From Natronosalvus caseinilyticus (GTDB lineage: Archaea; Halobacteriota; Halobacteria; Halobacteriales; Natrialbaceae): a stretch of 64,000 nt of DNA. The notes beneath the pieces are model-generated. The model had not been told where the DNA came from, made no database searches, and saw only the letters and a program-made list of their open reading frames with translations. Location of the stretch: the NCBI RefSeq assembly GCF_017357105.1, contig NZ_CP071596.1, positions 1,240,001 through 1,304,000 of the forward strand, in the 5' to 3' direction. How positions within the stretch are numbered: position 1 is the first letter of the stretch; the number at the start of each line of letters is the position of its first letter. The position numbers were made by a program, and so were the translations under genes. This document shows, piece after piece, positions 18,594 through 39,732 of the stretch.

Positions 18594-18674
18594 ATGAGCG
18601 CACTCGCCACTACCGTCCTCGCTGTCCTCGGTAGCGCGAGCGCCGTCGCCCCGCGACGACGACCGGGCCTCTAG
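18594..18674 (+). CDS. Candidate arginine leader peptide upstream of argG (26 codons)
   Basis: A short ORF from ATG 18594 to TAG 18672-18674 encodes 26 residues: a small hydrophobic Ala/Val/Leu/Ser stretch, then PRRRPGL. The three arginine codons CGA-CGA-CGA are at 18654-18662. Two hairpins overlap them: CGTCGC-CCC-GCGACG (18644-18658), which covers the first arginine codons, and GGGCC-TCTA-GGCCC (18665-18678 with flanks), which contains the stop codon. A T-rich tract lies about 60 bases downstream (18726-18740). The ORF has a well-placed TATA box for leaderless expression. By position and composition it resembles a bacterial attenuation leader for the argG-argH operon. It could also be a chance ORF or an independent small protein; it is not tested here. 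Confidence 0.5.
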   Translation: MSALATTVLAVLGSASAVAPRRRPGL

Positions 18675-18784: not shown

Positions 18785-18818
18785 AATTTAAGTCCCGTAG
18801 CCGATTGTACTCGAGTAC
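18785..18818 (+). promoter_or_regulatory. argG promoter with palindromic operator GTACTCGAGTAC
   Basis: A second TATA element, AATTTAAG (18785-18792), is 33 bases before the argG ATG and predicts a start near 18815. The perfect 12-base palindrome GTACTCGAGTAC at 18807-18818 covers that start site, the place where an archaeal repressor would bind. So argG may have its own repressible promoter as well as read-through from the leader ORF. Confidence 0.5.
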
Positions 18819-31854: not shown

Positions 31855-32982
31855 TCACGGCGACTCGAGTACTCGCTTCACGGCCTCCGCTCCCGCCCGA
31901 ACGGCGGCCGTCTCGACGTACTCTCGCGGGGAGTGAGCGACGGCGCCGTCCTCGTCCGCGAGCACCCCCGGCCCGAAGACGACGGTGGGCGCGTGGGCGG
32001 CGAAGTAGGAAGCCTCGGTGGCGGCCGTGAACGGGCGCACCTCGCCGCTCCCTCTCGCCGCGAGGGCGTCGACGACCGGCGCCTCCGTGTCGGTCGCCCA
32101 GGCCTCGAGAAACGGCGTCGGTCGCTCGGTGAACGAGAACGAGACGCCCACGTCGGCGGGAACGGCCGCCTCGAGGTGGGCCACCAGCGCCTGTTCGAAC
32201 CCCTCGGCGGTTTCGGGTGGAACGCTCCGGCGGTCGACCGTGAGTCGAACCTGGTCGGGGACCTGATTGGTCGCGTCGCCGCCCTCGACGACCGTCGGCG
32301 TGAGCGTCGCGGCCCCGAGGTCAGGGTGGGCGGGCGGTGCGTCCTCGTGGTCGTCGAACGTCTCGAGCGCCCTCAGAACCTGCTCGAGGGCGGCCACCGC
32401 ATTGACGCCCGACTGCGGTTCGGCGGCGTGAGCGTTCGCCCCCGAGAGTTCGACCGTCCCCTCGAAGCGCCCCTTCGCGGCGGTGCAGACGTCGAGGCCG
32501 GTCGGTTCGCCGACGACGACGGCGTCGGCGTCCCGAATAGGCGAGTCGGGCCGGGAGACGAGGGCGTGGGCGCCCGTCGAGAGGAGTTCCTCGTCGGGGG
32601 TTATCGCGAGTGTCACTCGATTCGTCGTCTCGGCCTCGAGAAACGCGGCGAGCAGCGCGGCGACCTGTCCCTTCGCGTCGCAGGACCCACGGCCGCGGAT
32701 TTTGCCGTCGCCGACCTCGAGCGGGACGTGTGGCGAGACGGTGTCGATGTGGGTATTGAGGACGTAGTGTTGGCCGCCGTTCCGCCATTCGTTGGCTGTC
32801 GTCGGCTCGCGCGTCGCCAGCACGTTCCCCGCCTCGTCGACCGTCGCTTCGATCTCGTAGTCCTCGAGGGTCTCGACCAGGAAGGCTCGCATCTCGGCGA
32901 CCCCGGCCGCAGGGTGTGAGGGAATCGCGACCGCATCCTCGAGGAAGGCGATCGGATCGAATCCCTCCGAAGCCCCCGTCAC
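31855..32982 (-). CDS. dapE: Succinyl-diaminopimelate desuccinylase (M20 family)
   Basis: Removes succinate from N-succinyl-LL-2,6-diaminopimelate using two metal ions. In the 375-residue product the metal and catalytic motifs are LNTHIDTVSPH, RGRGSCDAKGQVAALL, ITPDEELLSTGA and VVVGEPTGLDVCTAAKG. It is the last gene of the dap operon. Its GTG start at 32982 overlaps the dapF stop (GTGA). M20 enzymes are hard to separate by sequence; the DapE call rests on its place in the operon with dapD, which shows the succinylase variant. Confidence 0.9.
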   Translation of the reverse strand: MTGASEGFDPIAFLEDAVAIPSHPAAGVAEMRAFLVETLEDYEIEATVDEAGNVLATREPTTANEWRNGGQHYVLNTHIDTVSPHVPLEVGDGKIRGRGSCDAKGQVAALLAAFLEAETTNRVTLAITPDEELLSTGAHALVSRPDSPIRDADAVVVGEPTGLDVCTAAKGRFEGTVELSGANAHAAEPQSGVNAVAALEQVLRALETFDDHEDAPPAHPDLGAATLTPTVVEGGDATNQVPDQVRLTVDRRSVPPETAEGFEQALVAHLEAAVPADVGVSFSFTERPTPFLEAWATDTEAPVVDALAARGSGEVRPFTAATEASYFAAHAPTVVFGPGVLADEDGAVAHSPREYVETAAVRAGAEAVKRVLESP

Positions 32983-33905
32983 GGGTCGAACGACGAGAAG
33001 TGAGTCGTCTGCACTTCTCCGTCGAACTCGTGTTCGACCGGGCCGATCAGGGTCGCGGTGTCGCCGTCGAAGACGACCTCGAGGTCGCCACCCGGCGGGC
33101 TAACGGAAATCGAGTCGCCGTCGGTGAGCCCCAGCCGGCGGGCGGCCGCCGCGATGGCCACCGCGCCGGTTCCGCAGGCGTCGGTTTCCCCCTCGACGCC
33201 GCGTTCGAACGTTCGTTGTCGGAACCCTTCCGCAGCGGAGCTCGCGAGGTTAACGTTCGTCCCCAGCGGGAACGCATCGGCGTGGCGAACCGGCGTCGCG
33301 ACGGCCTCGAGGTCGACCGCGTCCACGTCGTCGACGAACGCGACGGCGTGTGGAACGCCCGTGTTGACGACCGTGACCTCGAGGCCCTCGATGGGTTCCT
33401 CGATCACGGGGTCGTCTGCGAGTACTGGGATCGACTTCGGGTCGAAGGTTGGCTCGCCCATTTCGACGGCGATCCGGTCGTCCTGATCCTGTTCGTCGCT
33501 TCCGTGGCTTCCGTGGCTTCCGTGGCTTCCGTGGCTTCCGTCGCTTCCGTCGCTCCCGTCGCTCTCGACGCGATAGGCCCGTCGCGTCCCGGCCTGCGTG
33601 TCGATCATGACCTCGTCGCTCTCGGTGCGCTCCATGGCCCACCGGCCGGCGCAACGGGCACCGTTGCCACACATCGGCGCCGTGCCGCCGTCGGGCTGGA
33701 CGAGCGTCATGATCACTCGTGGCGGGTTGTACCGGTCCTCGAGCGCCAGGAACAGGATGCCGTCGGCGCCGACGCCGGTCTCGCGGTCACACTCGCGACT
33801 GGCGAGGCCCCGCCGGTCTGGGACGTAGGTCTCGGCGTCGATCACGAGGAAGTCGTTGCCGGTCCCGTGGTACTTCTCGAAGTGGACGTCGGCGAATGCG
33901 CTCAT
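32979..33905 (-). CDS. dapF: Diaminopimelate epimerase with tandem-repeat insertion
   Basis: Interconverts LL- and meso-diaminopimelate by a two-cysteine mechanism. The 308-residue protein begins VHFEKYHGTGNDFLVID, has catalytic Cys79 in MCGNGARCAG and the second cysteine in DACGTGAVAIAA. Between the two lobes at residues 116-136 there is an insertion of seven tripeptides, (DGS)3 then (HGS)4, coded by a 9-base tandem repeat, followed by the acidic DEQDQDD. This lies in a surface loop and probably does not harm activity. The ATG overlaps the lysA stop by four bases. Confidence 0.93.
   Translation of the reverse strand: MSAFADVHFEKYHGTGNDFLVIDAETYVPDRRGLASRECDRETGVGADGILFLALEDRYNPPRVIMTLVQPDGGTAPMCGNGARCAGRWAMERTESDEVMIDTQAGTRRAYRVESDGSDGSDGSHGSHGSHGSHGSDEQDQDDRIAVEMGEPTFDPKSIPVLADDPVIEEPIEGLEVTVVNTGVPHAVAFVDDVDAVDLEAVATPVRHADAFPLGTNVNLASSAAEGFRQRTFERGVEGETDACGTGAVAIAAAARRLGLTDGDSISVSPPGGDLEVVFDGDTATLIGPVEHEFDGEVQTTHFSSFDP
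33498..33560. repeat. 9-base tandem repeat inside dapF (7 copies)
   Basis: Seven copies of GCTTCCGTG or GCTTCCGTC (one with GCTCCCGTC) in a row on the plus strand. They stay in frame and encode the Gly-Ser-Asp/His tripeptides of DapF. Copy number could vary by slippage between strains without breaking the frame. Confidence 0.9.
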
Positions 33906-35257
33906 CGGGACACCTCCCGCGGTGGGCCGCGATCCGGTTCGTCGGTATCGCTCCCGCCGTCTTCATTCCCAGCCGCTCGCTCGACCCGGGTGACGTCCGA
34001 AAGCGTCTCGCGGCGCCGCGAGAGCGTCGCCGAACCGTCGGGCTCGAGAACGACCGAGGCGGGCCGCGGGCGCGAGTTGTACGTGCTCGCCATCTCGTAG
34101 CCGTAGGCGCCGGCGTTGCCAATCGCGAGGAGGTCGCCGCGGGCCGTCTCCGGCAGCGAGCGGTCCGTACAGAAGACGTCCGAACTCTCGCAGATGGAGC
34201 CCGTCACCGTTTGCGGGTTCTCGGGTCGATCGACGGCGTCGGCCTCGAGGTTTCGAATTGGATGGTAGGAGCCGTACATCGCCGGTCGAGCCAGCGTCGT
34301 CATGCCCGCGTCGACGCCCACGACGGTCGTCTCGGGGGCGTCCTTGACCGTATTCACCCGCGTCAGGAGTACGCCAGCGTCGGCCACCAGGTACCGGCCG
34401 GGTTCGATCGTCAGTCGGGCGTCGACCGTTCCCAGCGCGTCGCGCGTGGCGTCGGCGACCGCCTCGAGGTCGAGCGGCGCCTCGTTTTCGCGGTAGGGGA
34501 CGCCGAAGCCGCCACCGACGTCGATGAACTCGAGGCCCGCCTGCGCGTCGGGAGCGGCGGTCAACGCCTTGTTCAGCTCTCGTGCCAGCTCGCCCATTCG
34601 CGAGACGAACTCGCGGTGAGCGTCCAGGTCGTCGCTCGAGACGCCGGAGCCGACGTGAGCGTGGACGCCGACGACGTCGAACCCGCGCTCGGCGGCGTCG
34701 ACGAGCGTCTCGACCGCCCGGTTCGCGGGAACGCCGAACTTCGCGTCCGCGCCCGTCCGGACCTTCTCGTGGTGGCCCGCACCGATACCGGGGTTCACCC
34801 GGAGACAGAGGCGGCCGTCGTAGCCGCGTTCCTCGAGCCTGTCGATGGTGTCTTCGGCGCCGGCGGTGATCGTCAGATTCGGGTGTTCGTCGGCCGCCTC
34901 GACGGCGACGTCCAGGTCGGCCGCGGGCGGGTTGACCGCCGTGTAGTGGACCCGCTCGCCCGGCGCGCCCGCCTCGAGCGCCCGGACGAGTTCGCCCGCG
35001 GAGGCGCACTCGATGCCCGCATCGGCCTCGAGCAGCGTTTCCAGTACCCTGTCGAGCGCGTTCGCCTTCGCCGCGAACATGATTTCGCTCTCGGGGAACG
35101 CGGCCTCGAGTCGCTCGTAGTTCTCGCGGACGCGCTCGAGGTCGAGGACGTACAGCGGCGTTCCGTACTCGTCGGCCAGGTCCCGCAGGTGGCTCGCGCT
35201 CCAGTCGCCGAGGCGGCGCGCTGGCGGGTTCGGTACCCCCGATTCGGCCGCACTCAT
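33902..35257 (-). CDS. lysA: Diaminopimelate decarboxylase
   Basis: Decarboxylates meso-diaminopimelate to lysine, the final step. The 451-residue alanine-racemase-fold enzyme binds pyridoxal phosphate through Lys64 in MFAAKANAL; HVGSG (in GVHAHVGSG), FIDVGGGFGVPY, EPGRYLVADAG and SICESSDVFC (with the cysteine from the partner subunit) are all present. The frame stays open upstream to 35650, but the ATG at 35257 overlaps the dapD stop (ATGA) and gives the family start. A disordered acidic tail ends the protein. Confidence 0.95.
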   Translation of the reverse strand: MSAAESGVPNPPARRLGDWSASHLRDLADEYGTPLYVLDLERVRENYERLEAAFPESEIMFAAKANALDRVLETLLEADAGIECASAGELVRALEAGAPGERVHYTAVNPPAADLDVAVEAADEHPNLTITAGAEDTIDRLEERGYDGRLCLRVNPGIGAGHHEKVRTGADAKFGVPANRAVETLVDAAERGFDVVGVHAHVGSGVSSDDLDAHREFVSRMGELARELNKALTAAPDAQAGLEFIDVGGGFGVPYRENEAPLDLEAVADATRDALGTVDARLTIEPGRYLVADAGVLLTRVNTVKDAPETTVVGVDAGMTTLARPAMYGSYHPIRNLEADAVDRPENPQTVTGSICESSDVFCTDRSLPETARGDLLAIGNAGAYGYEMASTYNSRPRPASVVLEPDGSATLSRRRETLSDVTRVERAAGNEDGGSDTDEPDRGPPREVSR

Positions 35258-36105
35258 CGGTTCCGTAACACCTCCTCGCGCTCGGAGCGCTCGAGTGTCC
35301 GGTCCTCGAGGGCGGTCGCGACGACGGCGGGCTTGTACGCGCCGCCCTCGAACAGGTCGTGGTCGCTGATCGAGGACTCGACGAACCGGGTGAAGGCGCG
35401 GCGCTCGGCGGGCAACTCGCCGTAGATAACCTCCTCCTCGACGAGGTCGTAGACCGGGATCCGCGGCGTGAGCAGCGTGTTCTCGCCGACGACGGCGTTC
35501 TCGCCGACGACGAAACCCGACGTCACGCGACAGCCCGCGCCCAGCGAGACGCCGTCTTCGACCACGACGGGCGCGCTCTCGACGGGCTCGAGGACGCCGC
35601 CGATCAGCGTGTTGGCCCCGAGCTTGACGTTCGCGCCGATCTGGGCGCACGATCCGACCGTATCGCAGGAGTCGACGAGCGTTCCGTCCCCGACGTGGGC
35701 GCCGACGTTGACGAACGCCGGGCTCATCAGGATGCAGTCGGAGCCGACGTGGGCGCCCCGCCGAACGACCGTGCCGTCGGGCGTGTTTCGAGAGCCGCGC
35801 TCGCCGAAGTCGCTCGAGTCCGCGAGCGGGAGCACGTCGTTGTAGGTGACGCCGCCGTACTCGCGGGCGCGGGTCTCACGGAGGCCGAAGTTGAGCAGGA
35901 TGCCCTGCTTGACCCAGGCGTTAGCCGTCCACTCGCCGTCCTCGCCGCGGGGCTCGGCCGCGCGGACGTCGCCGGCCTCGAGCGCGTCGAGGAACGTCTC
36001 GAGCGTCGCCATGTCGTCTTCGGTCGCCGACTCGGCGTCGACGTCGTTCGCCTCGTAGCGGTTCCACAGGTCGGTAATCGCGGACTCGAGGGTCGATGAG
36101 CTCAT
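35254..36105 (-). CDS. dapD: Tetrahydrodipicolinate N-succinyltransferase
   Basis: Transfers succinate from succinyl-CoA to tetrahydrodipicolinate, committing the route to the succinylase branch. The 283-residue protein has an N-terminal helical domain and a left-handed beta-helix made of hexapeptide repeats (about residues 110-215: GTVVRRGAHVGSDCILMSPA, VGSCAQIGANVKLGANTLIG). The ending EEVLRNR is typical. It overlaps dapB upstream and lysA downstream by four bases each. Confidence 0.93.
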   Translation of the reverse strand: MSSSTLESAITDLWNRYEANDVDAESATEDDMATLETFLDALEAGDVRAAEPRGEDGEWTANAWVKQGILLNFGLRETRAREYGGVTYNDVLPLADSSDFGERGSRNTPDGTVVRRGAHVGSDCILMSPAFVNVGAHVGDGTLVDSCDTVGSCAQIGANVKLGANTLIGGVLEPVESAPVVVEDGVSLGAGCRVTSGFVVGENAVVGENTLLTPRIPVYDLVEEEVIYGELPAERRAFTRFVESSISDHDLFEGGAYKPAVVATALEDRTLERSEREEVLRNR

Positions 36106-36869
36106 GCTGAAAGTACCTCCGCAAAGTCGTATCGCCCGGGTTCCTGGCCGGCCAGCCAGACCGCCGCGTCGACGGCGCCGGCGGCGAAGACGCCCCGGTC
36201 CTCGGCGCGGTGGGTGAGTCGTAGTTCCTCGTGGTTGCCGGCGAGAACGACCTCGTGCTCCCCCGTTACGTTCCCGGCTCGCAGGGCGTGAACGCCGATC
36301 TCGCCTGACGTTCGTGGCTGCTCGCCCTCCCGACCGTGGACGCGGTCCGTGAAGTCGCCGGCCGCTTCGATCTCCTCGAGCAGCCGGTTCGCCGTGCCGC
36401 TGGGGGCGTCGCGCTTGCCGTTGTGGTGGGTCTCGACGAGTTCGACGTCGTAGCCGGGCAGGCTCGCGACGGCATCCCCGACGAGCGCGAGCAGCGCCTG
36501 GACGCCGCGAGCGAAGTTCGGGCTGTGGAGCAGCGCGATTTCGTCGCCGTAGGCCTCGAGCTGGGACGTCTCGTCGTCGGAAAATCCCGTCGTCCCCGTG
36601 ACGAACGGGACGCCCGCCTCGGCGCAGGCGGCGGCGTACTCGAGCGCCGACTCCGGTCCCGTAAAGTCGATCACGGCGCCCGGGTCGCGCTCCTCGAGCA
36701 GGAGGTTGATCTCGAGAGCCGACTCGATCTCGATGCCCTGGACGCGCTCGACGTCGGTGCTCCGGTTGACCGCGAAGGTGACCTCGCAGTCGTCGCGGGC
36801 CGTGAGTACGCCGAGGACGCGTCGCCCCATGCGTCCGGCCGCGCCCGTGACGCCGACCCGGACGCTCAT
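36102..36869 (-). CDS. dapB: 4-hydroxy-tetrahydrodipicolinate reductase
   Basis: NAD(P)H-dependent reductase of the DAP pathway, 255 residues. It has the Rossmann motif GVTGAAGRMGRRV at the N terminus, VIDFTGPES, FVTGTTGFSDDE, SPNFARGVQALL, and the substrate motif ETHHNGKRDAPSGTA. The ATG at 36869 (MSVRVGV) overlaps the dapA stop as ATGA; a GTG one codon earlier is possible. The overlap pattern is the same as at every junction in this operon. Confidence 0.95.
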   Translation of the reverse strand: MSVRVGVTGAAGRMGRRVLGVLTARDDCEVTFAVNRSTDVERVQGIEIESALEINLLLEERDPGAVIDFTGPESALEYAAACAEAGVPFVTGTTGFSDDETSQLEAYGDEIALLHSPNFARGVQALLALVGDAVASLPGYDVELVETHHNGKRDAPSGTANRLLEEIEAAGDFTDRVHGREGEQPRTSGEIGVHALRAGNVTGEHEVVLAGNHEELRLTHRAEDRGVFAAGAVDAAVWLAGQEPGRYDFAEVLSA

Positions 36870-37789
36870 CACTCGGCCTCCGCCCGGGAGGTGGGCTGGT
36901 TCTCGAGGTCCTCGAGGACGGCCTCGAGGTCGTCGCGGTACTCCTCCCGGAGCTGGGTGAGCGGCGGGCGCAGTCTCGCGGGGCCGTACCCGCGGATGGC
37001 CATCGCCTCCTTGACCGGGATGGGGTTCGTCTCGACGAACAGTTCGCGCATCAGCGGCCCGAGTTCGTGGTGAATGGCCCGGGCGCGCTCGTAGTCGCCT
37101 TCGAGGGCGGCCCCGACCATCGCGACGGTTCGTTCGGGTTCGATATTGGCGACGACGCTGATGCCACCGCGTCCGCCGATCGAGAGCATCGGGAGAGTGA
37201 GCGCGTCGTCGCCCGAGAGCACCGAGAAGTCCGAGTCAGCGGTTCGCTCGACGATTTCGCCGATGACACCGAGGTCGCCTTCGGCGGCCTTGTAGCCGCC
37301 GATGTTGGGGTGCTCGGCCAGTTCGACGACCGTGTCCGGTTCGATCGTCCGGCCAGTACGGGAGGGGACGTTGTAGACGATCTGTGGCACGTCGACCGCG
37401 TCCGCGATGGTCCGGTAGTGCTCGAGCAGGCCGCGCTGTTCGGGCTTGTTGTAGTACGGCGAGATCAGGAGCAGGCCGTCGGCGCCGGCGTCGGCCGCGC
37501 GCTCGGAGAGTTCGAGCGCTTCGCGCGTGTTGTTCGAGCCAGTACCCGCGATCACGGGCACGTCGTCGACGGCGTCGATCACCGCCTCGAGCACGCGAAC
37601 GTGCTCGTCGTGGGTCAGGGTGGCGGACTCGCCGGTGGAGCCGACGGGGACGAGGCCGTCGACGCCCGCGGTCTCGAGGCGCTGGGCGTCCGCGCGGAGT
37701 GTCTCGTAGTCGATTCGCTCGTCGGCGTCGAAGGGTGTGCACATTGCCGGGAAGACGCCCGTGAAGTCGATGTCGTTGTCGTGTGTCAT
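36869..37789 (-). CDS. dapA: 4-hydroxy-tetrahydrodipicolinate synthase
   Basis: Condenses pyruvate with aspartate semialdehyde, the entry step to diaminopimelate and lysine. The 306-residue TIM-barrel enzyme has Lys167 in GGYKAAEGD (Schiff base), Tyr139 in IVYNVPSRTG and PVGSTGESATL near residue 50. The ATG at 37789 is chosen because the upstream in-frame extension to 37858 reads through a Thr/Pro/His-rich segment unlike the family. There is no TATA-like sequence close to this ATG; the nearest plausible promoter is 280 bases upstream, in front of a lysine-rich leader ORF, so dapA appears to have a 5' leader of about 250 bases. Confidence 0.95.
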   Translation of the reverse strand: MTHDNDIDFTGVFPAMCTPFDADERIDYETLRADAQRLETAGVDGLVPVGSTGESATLTHDEHVRVLEAVIDAVDDVPVIAGTGSNNTREALELSERAADAGADGLLLISPYYNKPEQRGLLEHYRTIADAVDVPQIVYNVPSRTGRTIEPDTVVELAEHPNIGGYKAAEGDLGVIGEIVERTADSDFSVLSGDDALTLPMLSIGGRGGISVVANIEPERTVAMVGAALEGDYERARAIHHELGPLMRELFVETNPIPVKEAMAIRGYGPARLRPPLTQLREEYRDDLEAVLEDLENQPTSRAEAE

Positions 37790-37921
37790 TGGTGTGGGTG
37801 TGGGTTTGTGGGTCGTGTGTCGTGGATTCTGCACTCGAAAGCAGCGCGAAACGACCACGCTGCCCTCTGAAGTGTGAGTTGGTAGACCGTGCGTTCGATC
37901 CGAAATGTGCCCGAAACGAGG

Positions 37922-37943
37922 GTGCTAATCTCGCAGTGAGCAC
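37922..37943 (-). promoter_or_regulatory. Hairpin just after the lysine leader ORF
   Basis: On the minus strand GTGCT...AGCAC (37943-37939 with 37926-37922, 12-base loop) begins two bases after the leader stop codon. A second, larger stem inside the leader ORF pairs GTCGCGTC (38037-38030) with GACGCGAC (37993-37986). Both lie in the predicted dapA message. Confidence 0.4.
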
Positions 37944-37945
37944 TC

Positions 37946-38041
37946 TTACGCACGTTTTTTCGATTTTGTGGGGCGAAAACGAGGTGTCGCGTCGCTCCGG
38001 GCCGTCGAACGGGCCTCGACCGCGAGCGTGACGCGACGCAT
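37946..38041 (-). CDS. Candidate lysine leader peptide upstream of dapA (31 codons)
   Basis: A short ORF from ATG 38041 to TAA 37948-37946 encodes 31 residues rich in Arg/Thr/Ala, ending PTKSKKRA. Lysine codons are AAA at 37966, 37960 and 37957, directly before the stop. A TATA-like ATAAG (plus-strand CTTAT at 38066-38070) is 26-27 bases before the ATG, so the transcript would be leaderless at this ORF, and no other promoter is evident before dapA. An 8-base-pair stem lies within the ORF and another hairpin follows the stop. The arrangement resembles a bacterial attenuation leader that reads lysine supply. A chance ORF cannot be excluded. Confidence 0.5.
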   Translation of the reverse strand: MRRVTLAVEARSTARSDATPRFRPTKSKKRA

Positions 38042-38064
38042 ACGAGACACACGGCAGTCGAGGA

Positions 38065-38071
38065 ACTTATC
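38065..38071 (-). promoter_or_regulatory. TATA box for the lysine leader ORF and dap operon
   Basis: The minus strand reads CGATAAGTT; the centre is about 26 bases before the leader ATG at 38041. A GTGTG-TTAT-CACAC inverted repeat at 38099-38112 lies just upstream and could be an operator. Confidence 0.45.
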
Positions 38072-38268
38072 GGTTGCGCCTCTCGTCAAATCTGCCTGGT
38101 GTGTTATCACACGATGGTTTGCAGCGTGGGTCACACGGGTTGACGACTCGAGTTGATCGTCGGCCCCGTCCGTCGGCAGGTCGGCCTGGTCGACAGTCAG
38201 CGTCGATCGTCGAGCCGCAACTCGAGTGTGGGGCAAAAACCGACTCGAGGTCGTGACTTCCCGCGATA

Positions 38269-38274
38269 TTTATA
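38269..38274 (+). promoter_or_regulatory. TATA box of htpX
   Basis: TTTATA centred about 29 bases before the ATG at 38301, consistent with a leaderless htpX transcript. Confidence 0.6.
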
Positions 38275-38300
38275 CGTTCGAATCGCTAACTGGAGCGCGT

Positions 38301-39134
38301 ATGAACGACTTTGGATTGAAAGTCCGGATGGCGATCGTCGGCTCGATACTGTTCGGCTTCTACCTCCTCGGGGGGTTCGTCTTCGCCGCCGCCTTCGGCG
38401 CACCGCTGTACCTCGTGCTGGGCGTCGGGATCGTCGTCGTCCCGGCGATCCAGTACAAACTCGGCCGGTGGATGGCCGTCAGGAGCGTCGGCGCCGAGGA
38501 CATGCCAGAATCCGGGCAGTACCAGGAGATTCACCACATGACCGAGACGCTCTGCGATCGGATGGGCCTCGAGACCAAGCCGCGGCTCATGGTCGCCGAC
38601 ATGGGCGTCCCCAACGCGTTCGCCACCGGCCGCAAGGGCGCCGGTATCGTCGTCGTCTCGACCGAACTCATCCGCCTGCTCGAGCGCGACGAACTCGAGG
38701 GCGTCATCGCCCACGAACTCGCCCACATCAACAACCGCGACGTGATCACGATGGTGCTCGGGCAGTCGATCGGCATGATCGTCAGCTACGCCGTCTTCTT
38801 CGTCGTCCGCGGCCTGGGCGAGAACAACATCGGGAGCTTCGTCCTCGCGTACGTCGCCTCCATCGCGGCGAACTTCCTCGTCATGCTGTTCGTCATGGCG
38901 ATTAGCCGCTACCGCGAGTACGTCGCCGACGCCGACGCCCGCGAGGCAATCGGCACCGGCGACCCGCTGGCCCGCGCGCTCGAGAAGATTTCCCGGGGCG
39001 CCGAAGGGCGCGAGTCGAGGATCGACGACAGCGTCAGCGCACTGTGCATTCTGAACACCGACCGGAGCCTCCTCCAGCAGGTGCTCTCGACGCACCCGCC
39101 GACGGAGAAACGCATCGCGCGGCTTCGGAACTGA
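38301..39134 (+). CDS. htpX: HtpX-like membrane zinc metalloprotease (M48 family)
   Basis: Membrane-bound protease for quality control of misfolded membrane proteins. The 277-residue protein has two N-terminal transmembrane helices (about 10-32 and 36-52), HELAH at residues 138-142 (zinc ligands and catalytic Glu), two more hydrophobic segments (about 155-170 and 178-200), and Glu206 in SRYREYVADADA as the third zinc ligand. It ends STHPPTEKRIARLRN, a typical M48 ending. The TATA box supports the ATG at 38301 over a longer frame from 38226. Confidence 0.93.
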   Translation: MNDFGLKVRMAIVGSILFGFYLLGGFVFAAAFGAPLYLVLGVGIVVVPAIQYKLGRWMAVRSVGAEDMPESGQYQEIHHMTETLCDRMGLETKPRLMVADMGVPNAFATGRKGAGIVVVSTELIRLLERDELEGVIAHELAHINNRDVITMVLGQSIGMIVSYAVFFVVRGLGENNIGSFVLAYVASIAANFLVMLFVMAISRYREYVADADAREAIGTGDPLARALEKISRGAEGRESRIDDSVSALCILNTDRSLLQQVLSTHPPTEKRIARLRN

Positions 39135-39156
39135 TTGCTCACTCGAGTCGTCTCGA

Positions 39157-39732
39157 TTACCCGCCCGACTCGACCTGAATCTCGCCGAGCATCGTCCCGA
39201 CGTGCACCTCGCAGACGTACTGGGTCATCTCCGAGGTGGCCTCGAGCGTCAGCGTCTGGGTTTCGCCTTCCTCCTCGATGATCTCGGTCTGGTAGTCCTC
39301 GACGACCTCGTCGTTGTCGTCCCAGATCACGATGTTGTGGGGCTGGCCGTCGGCGTTCTCCCAGGTGATATCGTACTCCTGGCCCTCCATCAGGGTGAGC
39401 GTCGGGTTGGTCTCGCCCTCGATTGGCGCCGGTTCGACGCCCTCCCACCCCTCGGTGATTCCGTCGAGGACGATTTCGTCGACGCCCTCCCACTCACCCG
39501 CGCCGGTCTCGTTACCGTCTCCGGTCTCGTTGCCGGCTTCGGTCTCGTTATCCGTTCCGCCAGCACCGGTCTCGTTTTCGTCGCCACCACCCGTTGTCTC
39601 GTTGTCGCCGCCGGTAGTGTTGTTGTCCCCCGGCCCGCCTCCTTCCGTACAGCCCGCGAGCAGTGCCAGGGTGACACCGGCGCCCGCGGCGGAGAGCACT
39701 CGCCGTCGTGATACTGAATTGTCTCTTTCCAT
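39157..39732 (-). CDS. Halocyanin-like blue copper lipoprotein
   Basis: A 191-residue membrane-attached electron carrier. The N terminus is a Tat-type lipoprotein signal: SRRRVLSAAG followed by a hydrophobic stretch and LLAGC, with Cys28 as the lipid-modified residue. A long Asn/Glu/Thr/Gly linker (about 30-80) leads to the cupredoxin domain, where His132 (DGQPHNIVIW), Cys174, His177 and Met181 (YVCEVHVGTM) make a type 1 copper site. Its redox partner is unknown; cydAB and other respiratory genes are far away. Confidence 0.88.
   Translation of the reverse strand: MERDNSVSRRRVLSAAGAGVTLALLAGCTEGGGPGDNNTTGGDNETTGGGDENETGAGGTDNETEAGNETGDGNETGAGEWEGVDEIVLDGITEGWEGVEPAPIEGETNPTLTLMEGQEYDITWENADGQPHNIVIWDDNDEVVEDYQTEIIEEEGETQTLTLEATSEMTQYVCEVHVGTMLGEIQVESGG

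Follow-up and report, generated by a model that had tools for sequence, protein, structure and literature searches.

In bacteria, ribosome-mediated control by leader peptides is a well-known principle, represented by the attenuators trpL, hisL, thrL, pheL/pheST, and ivbL/ilvB, and in a further bacterial type (tna) the leader peptide controls Rho-dependent termination. To our knowledge, Archaea are without Rho. According to a paper from 2021, archaea had no known transcription attenuator at that time (PMC8448881), and our full-text search of open-licence papers found no report of archaeal leader-peptide attenuation, an earlier description elsewhere being possible. Upstream ORFs (uORFs) in long 5'-UTRs with mapped transcription starts have been identified by dRNA-seq in Haloferax volcanii before pheS (26 aa) and a Trp-tRNA ligase gene (23 aa); no function was assigned to them, and dapA is absent from Table 2 of that study (PMC4983044).

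In the window that we analysed (64,000 nt of the Natronosalvus caseinilyticus genome), a short ORF with lysine codons near its end stands in front of dapA and is followed by a hairpin. We consider it likely, from the comparisons given below, that this ORF serves as a leader-peptide lysine sensor of the dap operon, and the bacterial principle apparently takes a new, archaeal form here. As read from the DNA, it would fit ribosome-mediated leader-peptide regulation in the broad sense, as an upstream ORF with end-product codons at a critical place. Like the bacterial attenuators, it combines a short leader ORF (here probably on the same RNA as the genes) with end-product codons near its end and an adjoining hairpin, but it is archaeal, apparently leaderless, has a hairpin with a conserved loop, and comes without an intrinsic terminator or a co-evolving antiterminator. 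With the tna type it shares a ribosome held near the leader end (proposed here), an untranslated C-rich stretch behind the leader, and the lack of an intrinsic terminator; it differs in its proposed signal, a shortage of charged tRNA in place of the free amino acid, and in that aCPSF1/FttA would putatively have to replace Rho. The Haloferax volcanii uORFs (PMC4983044) are likewise haloarchaeal and lie before amino-acid genes but, unlike the dapA leader, were given without mechanism, codon analysis, or RNA structure. Finally, lysine riboswitches and T-boxes likewise act in cis before biosynthesis genes and respond to an amino acid or to its tRNA. The dapA leader differs from them in that sensing would apparently proceed via translated codons and in that neither family gave a covariance-model match: positions 37000-39200, searched on both strands against 4227 Rfam families, yielded nothing at E up to 1.

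The features of the locus, in window coordinates and all on the minus strand, are the following:

38066-38076, minus strand: BRE/TATA-like box CAACCGATAAG at 25-35 nt upstream of the leader ATG, predicted promoter
37946-38041, minus strand: leader ORF, 31 codons plus TAA, conserved in 50/50 genomes, translation MRRVTLAVEARSTARSDATPRFRPTKSKKRA
37986-38037, minus strand: stem 1 inside the ORF, 8 bp GTCGCGTC/GACGCGAC, 38037-38030 with 37993-37986
37955-37966, minus strand: putative regulatory Lys codons K26 (37966-37964), K28 (37960-37958), and K29 (37957-37955), all AAA
37907-37943, minus strand: hairpin 2, beyond the leader TAA, with outer stem 37943-37937/37913-37907 and inner stem 37934-37929/37921-37916
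37790-37906, minus strand: untranslated tail between hairpin 2 and dapA, without U-tract and without promoter box
36869-37789, minus strand: dapA (ORF), first gene of the putatively controlled operon
36102-36869, minus strand: dapB, named from sequence and gene order
35254-36105, minus strand: dapD, named from sequence and gene order
33902-35257, minus strand: lysA, named from sequence and gene order
32979-33905, minus strand: dapF, named from sequence and gene order

The operon thus reads dapA-dapB-dapD-lysA-dapF (32979-37789, minus strand), with neighbouring genes overlapping or abutting, and the identical gene order is documented in Haloferax volcanii (HVO_1096-1101). The leader ATG lies at 38041 and the TAA at 37948-37946. 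Its start codon occupies the position expected for the transcription start of a leaderless transcript, and the spacing of CAACCGATAAG to the ATG is that expected in a leaderless haloarchaeal transcript. Nearly all of the 50 genomes that we compared have a TAAG or other TATA-like box at an equal distance from the start of the leader. Near the dapA ATG (up to 45 nt away), A/T runs of 5 nt or longer are absent. The leader ORF and dapA would therefore share one transcript, given a single promoter box that precedes the ORF, and the two start codons are 252 nt apart. These results agree with an earlier note on this DNA, which had reported a 31-codon ORF upstream of dapA, a TATA box before it as the sole promoter-like element (we likewise saw no second box near dapA), and a leader of about 250 bases. 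The 8-bp stem that it had placed within the ORF and the hairpin that it had described as starting two bases past the stop were also recovered (stem 1 and hairpin 2, respectively).

To evaluate the conservation of the leader, we compared the regions upstream of dapA in 50 haloarchaeal genomes, which represent ten families (37 from the same family, 13 from nine others). The leader ORF was present in 50/50 genomes, with 22-38 codons (median 26), ATG (46) or GTG (4) as start codon, and TGA, TAG, or TAA as stop. Frame 0 had internal stops in 0/50 leaders, whereas the other two frames were interrupted in 26 and 20. Every leader contained in-frame Lys within its last ten codons (two Lys in 31, three in 13, and one in 6), and the residues around Lys varied between leaders (e.g., KKRA, KRKRV, GKKFFS, VKFFGKVGT, GKFYTR, and GKFKTACC). 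Compared with the DapA protein, the leader end was enriched 24-fold in Lys and 3.2-fold in Arg. The Lys codons were AAA and AAG at 102:5 in the leaders vs. 6:144 in the dapA genes. The last codons of the leader are almost always rare lysine codons just ahead of a conserved hairpin. The form of tRNA-Lys that would read AAA is that with a UUU anticodon; our pattern searches at locus L297 and in the genome of the window returned only one tRNA-Lys, with anticodon CUU. This result weighs against the sensor, but the patterns were perhaps too strict for the UUU form.

The start or stop of some leaders was picked by hand among alternatives, and we also applied a blind rule that avoids such choice (an ORF of 18-40 codons, a TATA-like box at the leaderless position, and Lys in the last 9 codons). 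This rule was satisfied by 45/50 dapA upstream regions vs. 1/85 upstream regions of other genes, and with at least two Lys by 41/50 vs. 0/85. As the genomes are related, all of our genome counts are inflated and do not represent independent trials. The Lys-codon leader is real and far above chance. The comparison of dapA upstream regions that the earlier note had suggested shows the Lys match to the end product to hold across ten families while the flanking residues have changed.

An alternative reading takes the product of the ORF to be a small protein with a function of its own, or a basic arrest peptide, acting by its sequence and not by Lys-tRNA supply. Most leaders are about 26 aa long and end in basic residues, which would be consistent with this. 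However, residue identity is mostly lost with the exception of Lys; Arg, unlike Lys, is absent from some leader ends (KKFFS, VKFFGKVGT, KFKTACC); and the first part of the ORF follows the pairing of stem 1, so that we regard a peptide acting by its sequence as scarcely credible.

Both RNA elements showed compensatory changes. For stem 1 (alignment A2, 31 sequences), the covariation score was 0.235 vs. 0.162 in shuffled alignments (reached by 0/500), with both-side changes in 7/11 pairs. Hairpin 2 has the consensus GNGCUCG/CGGGCNC in the outer stem, a 2x2 internal loop, GCG(G/A)G/C(C/U)CGU in the inner stem, and URGCR in the loop (37928-37922 in the window, with UAGCA). In the alignment of hairpin 2 (A1, 47 sequences), 88.7% of cells pair, both-side changes occurred in 38 cells against 11.4 expected, and the covariation score was 0.233 vs. 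0.133 in shuffled alignments (reached by 0/500). Of these sequences, 30 have G-C and 17 have A-U at pair 23-35, and all 47 have G.U at pair 20-38. When arms were swapped among species, own arms paired far better than those of other species for both hairpins (0/5000 permutations each).

Two other readings of the leader end and hairpin 2 were considered and rejected. An overlapping reading frame across hairpin 2 (VLxARxAxSSRAR) was rejected because stem and loop indels are not multiples of three, while the pairing survives. A programmed -1 frameshift at AAAAAAC with the downstream hairpin was also rejected because many leaders have AAA CGT AAA CGC here, and the heptamer lies in the wrong register.

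The regulatory codons lie between two hairpins, as would be expected of a classical Yanofsky attenuator, in which the ribosome chooses between a U-run terminator and an antiterminator (here, the 3' arm of stem 1 with the 5' arm of hairpin 2). Yet the longest T-run between the leader stop and dapA is only 1-4 nt in all 50 genomes, which bears out the remark in the earlier note that a clear U-tract is lacking, and the trp-like pairing of these two arms showed no co-evolution in the swap test (own arms -9.18 vs. swapped -9.09, p 0.36). In the absence of a U-tract and of a co-evolving alternative pairing, the leader is not a classical terminator/antiterminator attenuator, and we regard that reading as highly improbable. 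Nor did the swap test reveal conserved pairing of the hairpin, its loop, or the stem arms with either the tail or the region of the dapA start; the best cross pairing, between the loop and the 5' arm of stem 1, had p 0.016 among 13 tests and was not significant after correction.

The URGCR loop and the invariant G.U pair are kept across the class, and the position of a ribosome alone does not account for them. A simple roadblock would not need a conserved loop sequence, so that both traits are left over by a model based on ribosome position; the URGCR loop is possibly a binding site. These traits would suit a hairpin 2 that senses lysine itself, as a riboswitch or protein-binding element with the ORF secondary, as would its occurrence once per genome, at dapA. 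Such a direct sensor would nevertheless leave the in-frame AAA codons, the AAA bias, and the held distance from Lys to hairpin unaccounted for, and it has no Rfam match; we therefore judge it improbable.

In 40/50 genomes, hairpin 2 begins 14 or 15 nt beyond the last Lys codon, counted from first base to first base. Two to four codons separate the last Lys from the stop, and their number is inverse to the stop-hairpin distance (Spearman -0.68, p 5e-8, uncorrected for relatedness). This inverse relation and the held spacing suggest that the Lys codon, and not just the stop, is apparently under selection for its distance to the hairpin. The leading edge of a ribosome lies about 12-14 nt from its A-site codon. 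With this footprint, a ribosome that waits at Lys would halt right in front of the folded hairpin; had it moved on to the stop codon, it would have most of the outer stem open. This Lys-to-hairpin geometry would form the core of the mechanism that we propose.

In the leader-peptide sensor that we favour, the RNA would begin at the leader ATG, and translation of the short peptide encoded there would serve as a measure of lysine. If charged Lys-tRNA runs short, the ribosome would wait on the AAA codons near the leader end, with its leading edge halted just short of hairpin 2; the hairpin would then stay folded and the ribosome remain on the nascent RNA, and the dap genes would be expressed as long as the ribosome is held at the Lys codons. 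When lysine is plentiful, the ribosome would reach the stop codon, open the outer stem of hairpin 2, and depart, and its departure would lower expression of the untranslated remainder and dapA. We infer the transcription start, the translation of the leader, and the lysine response with its direction from sequence data.

With regard to the output step, premature, aCPSF1/FttA-dependent termination within the C-rich untranslated tail, once the leader ribosome is gone, may be the most likely and most economical outcome, a view that we hold tentatively and with slightly less than even confidence. The sole trait bearing on it, indirectly, is that the tail is C-rich (C 39%, A 26%, G 23%, T 12% across the 50 genomes) and without U-tract. 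Reviews and an FttA structure paper treat coupling-dependent archaeal termination as plausible, though untested (PMC11616081, PMC8116511). The main rival for this step is translational control, in which the leader ribosome or hairpin 2 would alter ribosome access to the dapA start (by reinitiation, scanning, or masking) while RNA synthesis is unaffected. No terminator was seen, and the dapA start lies 80-250 nt 3' of the leader stop, which would favour such control. On the other hand, the hairpin and stem arms have no conserved pairing with the dapA start region, and the tail is variable in length and sequence, so that it gives no hint of a structured start site; we consider translational control rather unlikely.

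To evaluate the distribution of the element, we searched 292 genomes of the class with a covariance model of hairpin 2 (R1; cut-off E up to 1e-4). Matches were obtained in 230/292 genomes, nearly always once per genome; the match in the window scored 49 bits (E 2.3e-11). In the 41 genomes inspected, the strong matches sit at dapA loci. Weak second matches, inspected as possible further copies of hairpin 2, fall within long reading frames and look like chance. Among 20 genomes without a match, 18 had a clear dapA homologue, and 16 of these 18 still carried a Lys leader, its hairpin being more diverged. The earlier note had made its reading depend on finding the short ORF in relatives that have the operon, and the ORF occurs in these 16 genomes as well as in the 50 compared above. 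The other result that it had named as refuting, a dapA start close to 37789, has no promoter box in the sequence to support it. We found the leader in Haloferax mucosum and elongans (...FFSKKRVY/F) and in many Halorubrum (...TRLFSKKRA) and Haloarcula (...AKRKPPF). In deeply branching lineages (L094-L098, L177) and one genome of family f5 (L164), dapA was present with no recognisable Lys leader, and the DapA relatives of bacteria and Thermoplasmata had no credible leader at the loci inspected.

Similar leaders were identified before other amino-acid genes. At pheS, 21/30 loci had a leaderless-type short ORF with terminal Phe codons (ending GFGFFFAR or GFGFFTR), and the pheS leader of the window's own genome reads MAPESRPRARTDAQPTRRAGFGFFTR. 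At ilvB, a leaderless-type short ORF ending LIIVGAA was found in 12/12 loci, own genome included. Before trpS2 (bacterial-type tryptophan-tRNA ligase), several genomes (loci L135, L136, L144, L147) had a short ORF with WRW codons that sits within the loop of a TCCGCTCTC/GAGAGCGGA stem. No Trp leader before trpB and no His leader before hisG was found within the flanks examined. As for sequence behind these ORFs, most pheS leaders are followed by a GGTGGA...GAAACC stretch that looks like a separate hairpin, and behind the ilvB leader we noted a C-rich, G-poor stretch with no obvious hairpin. The uORFs before pheS and a Trp-tRNA ligase gene of Haloferax volcanii (PMC4983044) very likely correspond to these Phe and Trp leaders.

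An arginine leader also lies in the window, before argG (18594-18674, plus strand; MSALATTVLAVLGSASAVAPRRRPGL, ending APRRRPGL; box CTTTAATAG), and is a plausible Arg counterpart. This case is ambiguous because argG has its own leaderless-type promoter box (TTTAAG, 18787-18792), 30 nt before its ATG. The earlier note had equated the Lys match with this arginine case: the Lys match itself holds, but the comparison to argG is weaker on account of that box. With Phe, Ile/Val, Trp, and possibly Arg leaders before pheS, ilvB, trpS2, and argG, the Lys leader at dapA is probably one member of a class of leaders, in which those before pheS and ilvB share their target genes with the bacterial pheL/pheST and ivbL/ilvB.

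There is, in our estimate, about an even chance that these leaders form a haloarchaeal class of sensors (Lys/dapA, Phe/pheS, Ile-Val/ilvB, Trp/trpS2, and perhaps Arg/argG) without intrinsic terminators or alternative pairings, in which the position of the ribosome relative to a conserved hairpin or C-rich tail gates an archaeal termination factor. If true, ribosome-mediated attenuation would thereby be described for the first time in Archaea. A Lys leader across much of Halobacteria, together with its Phe, Ile/Val, and Trp sisters, would then mean that archaea couple the translation of a leader to the expression of an operon, and the leaders would offer genetically tractable sites at which archaeal transcription-translation coupling and aCPSF1/FttA-dependent premature termination could be tested.
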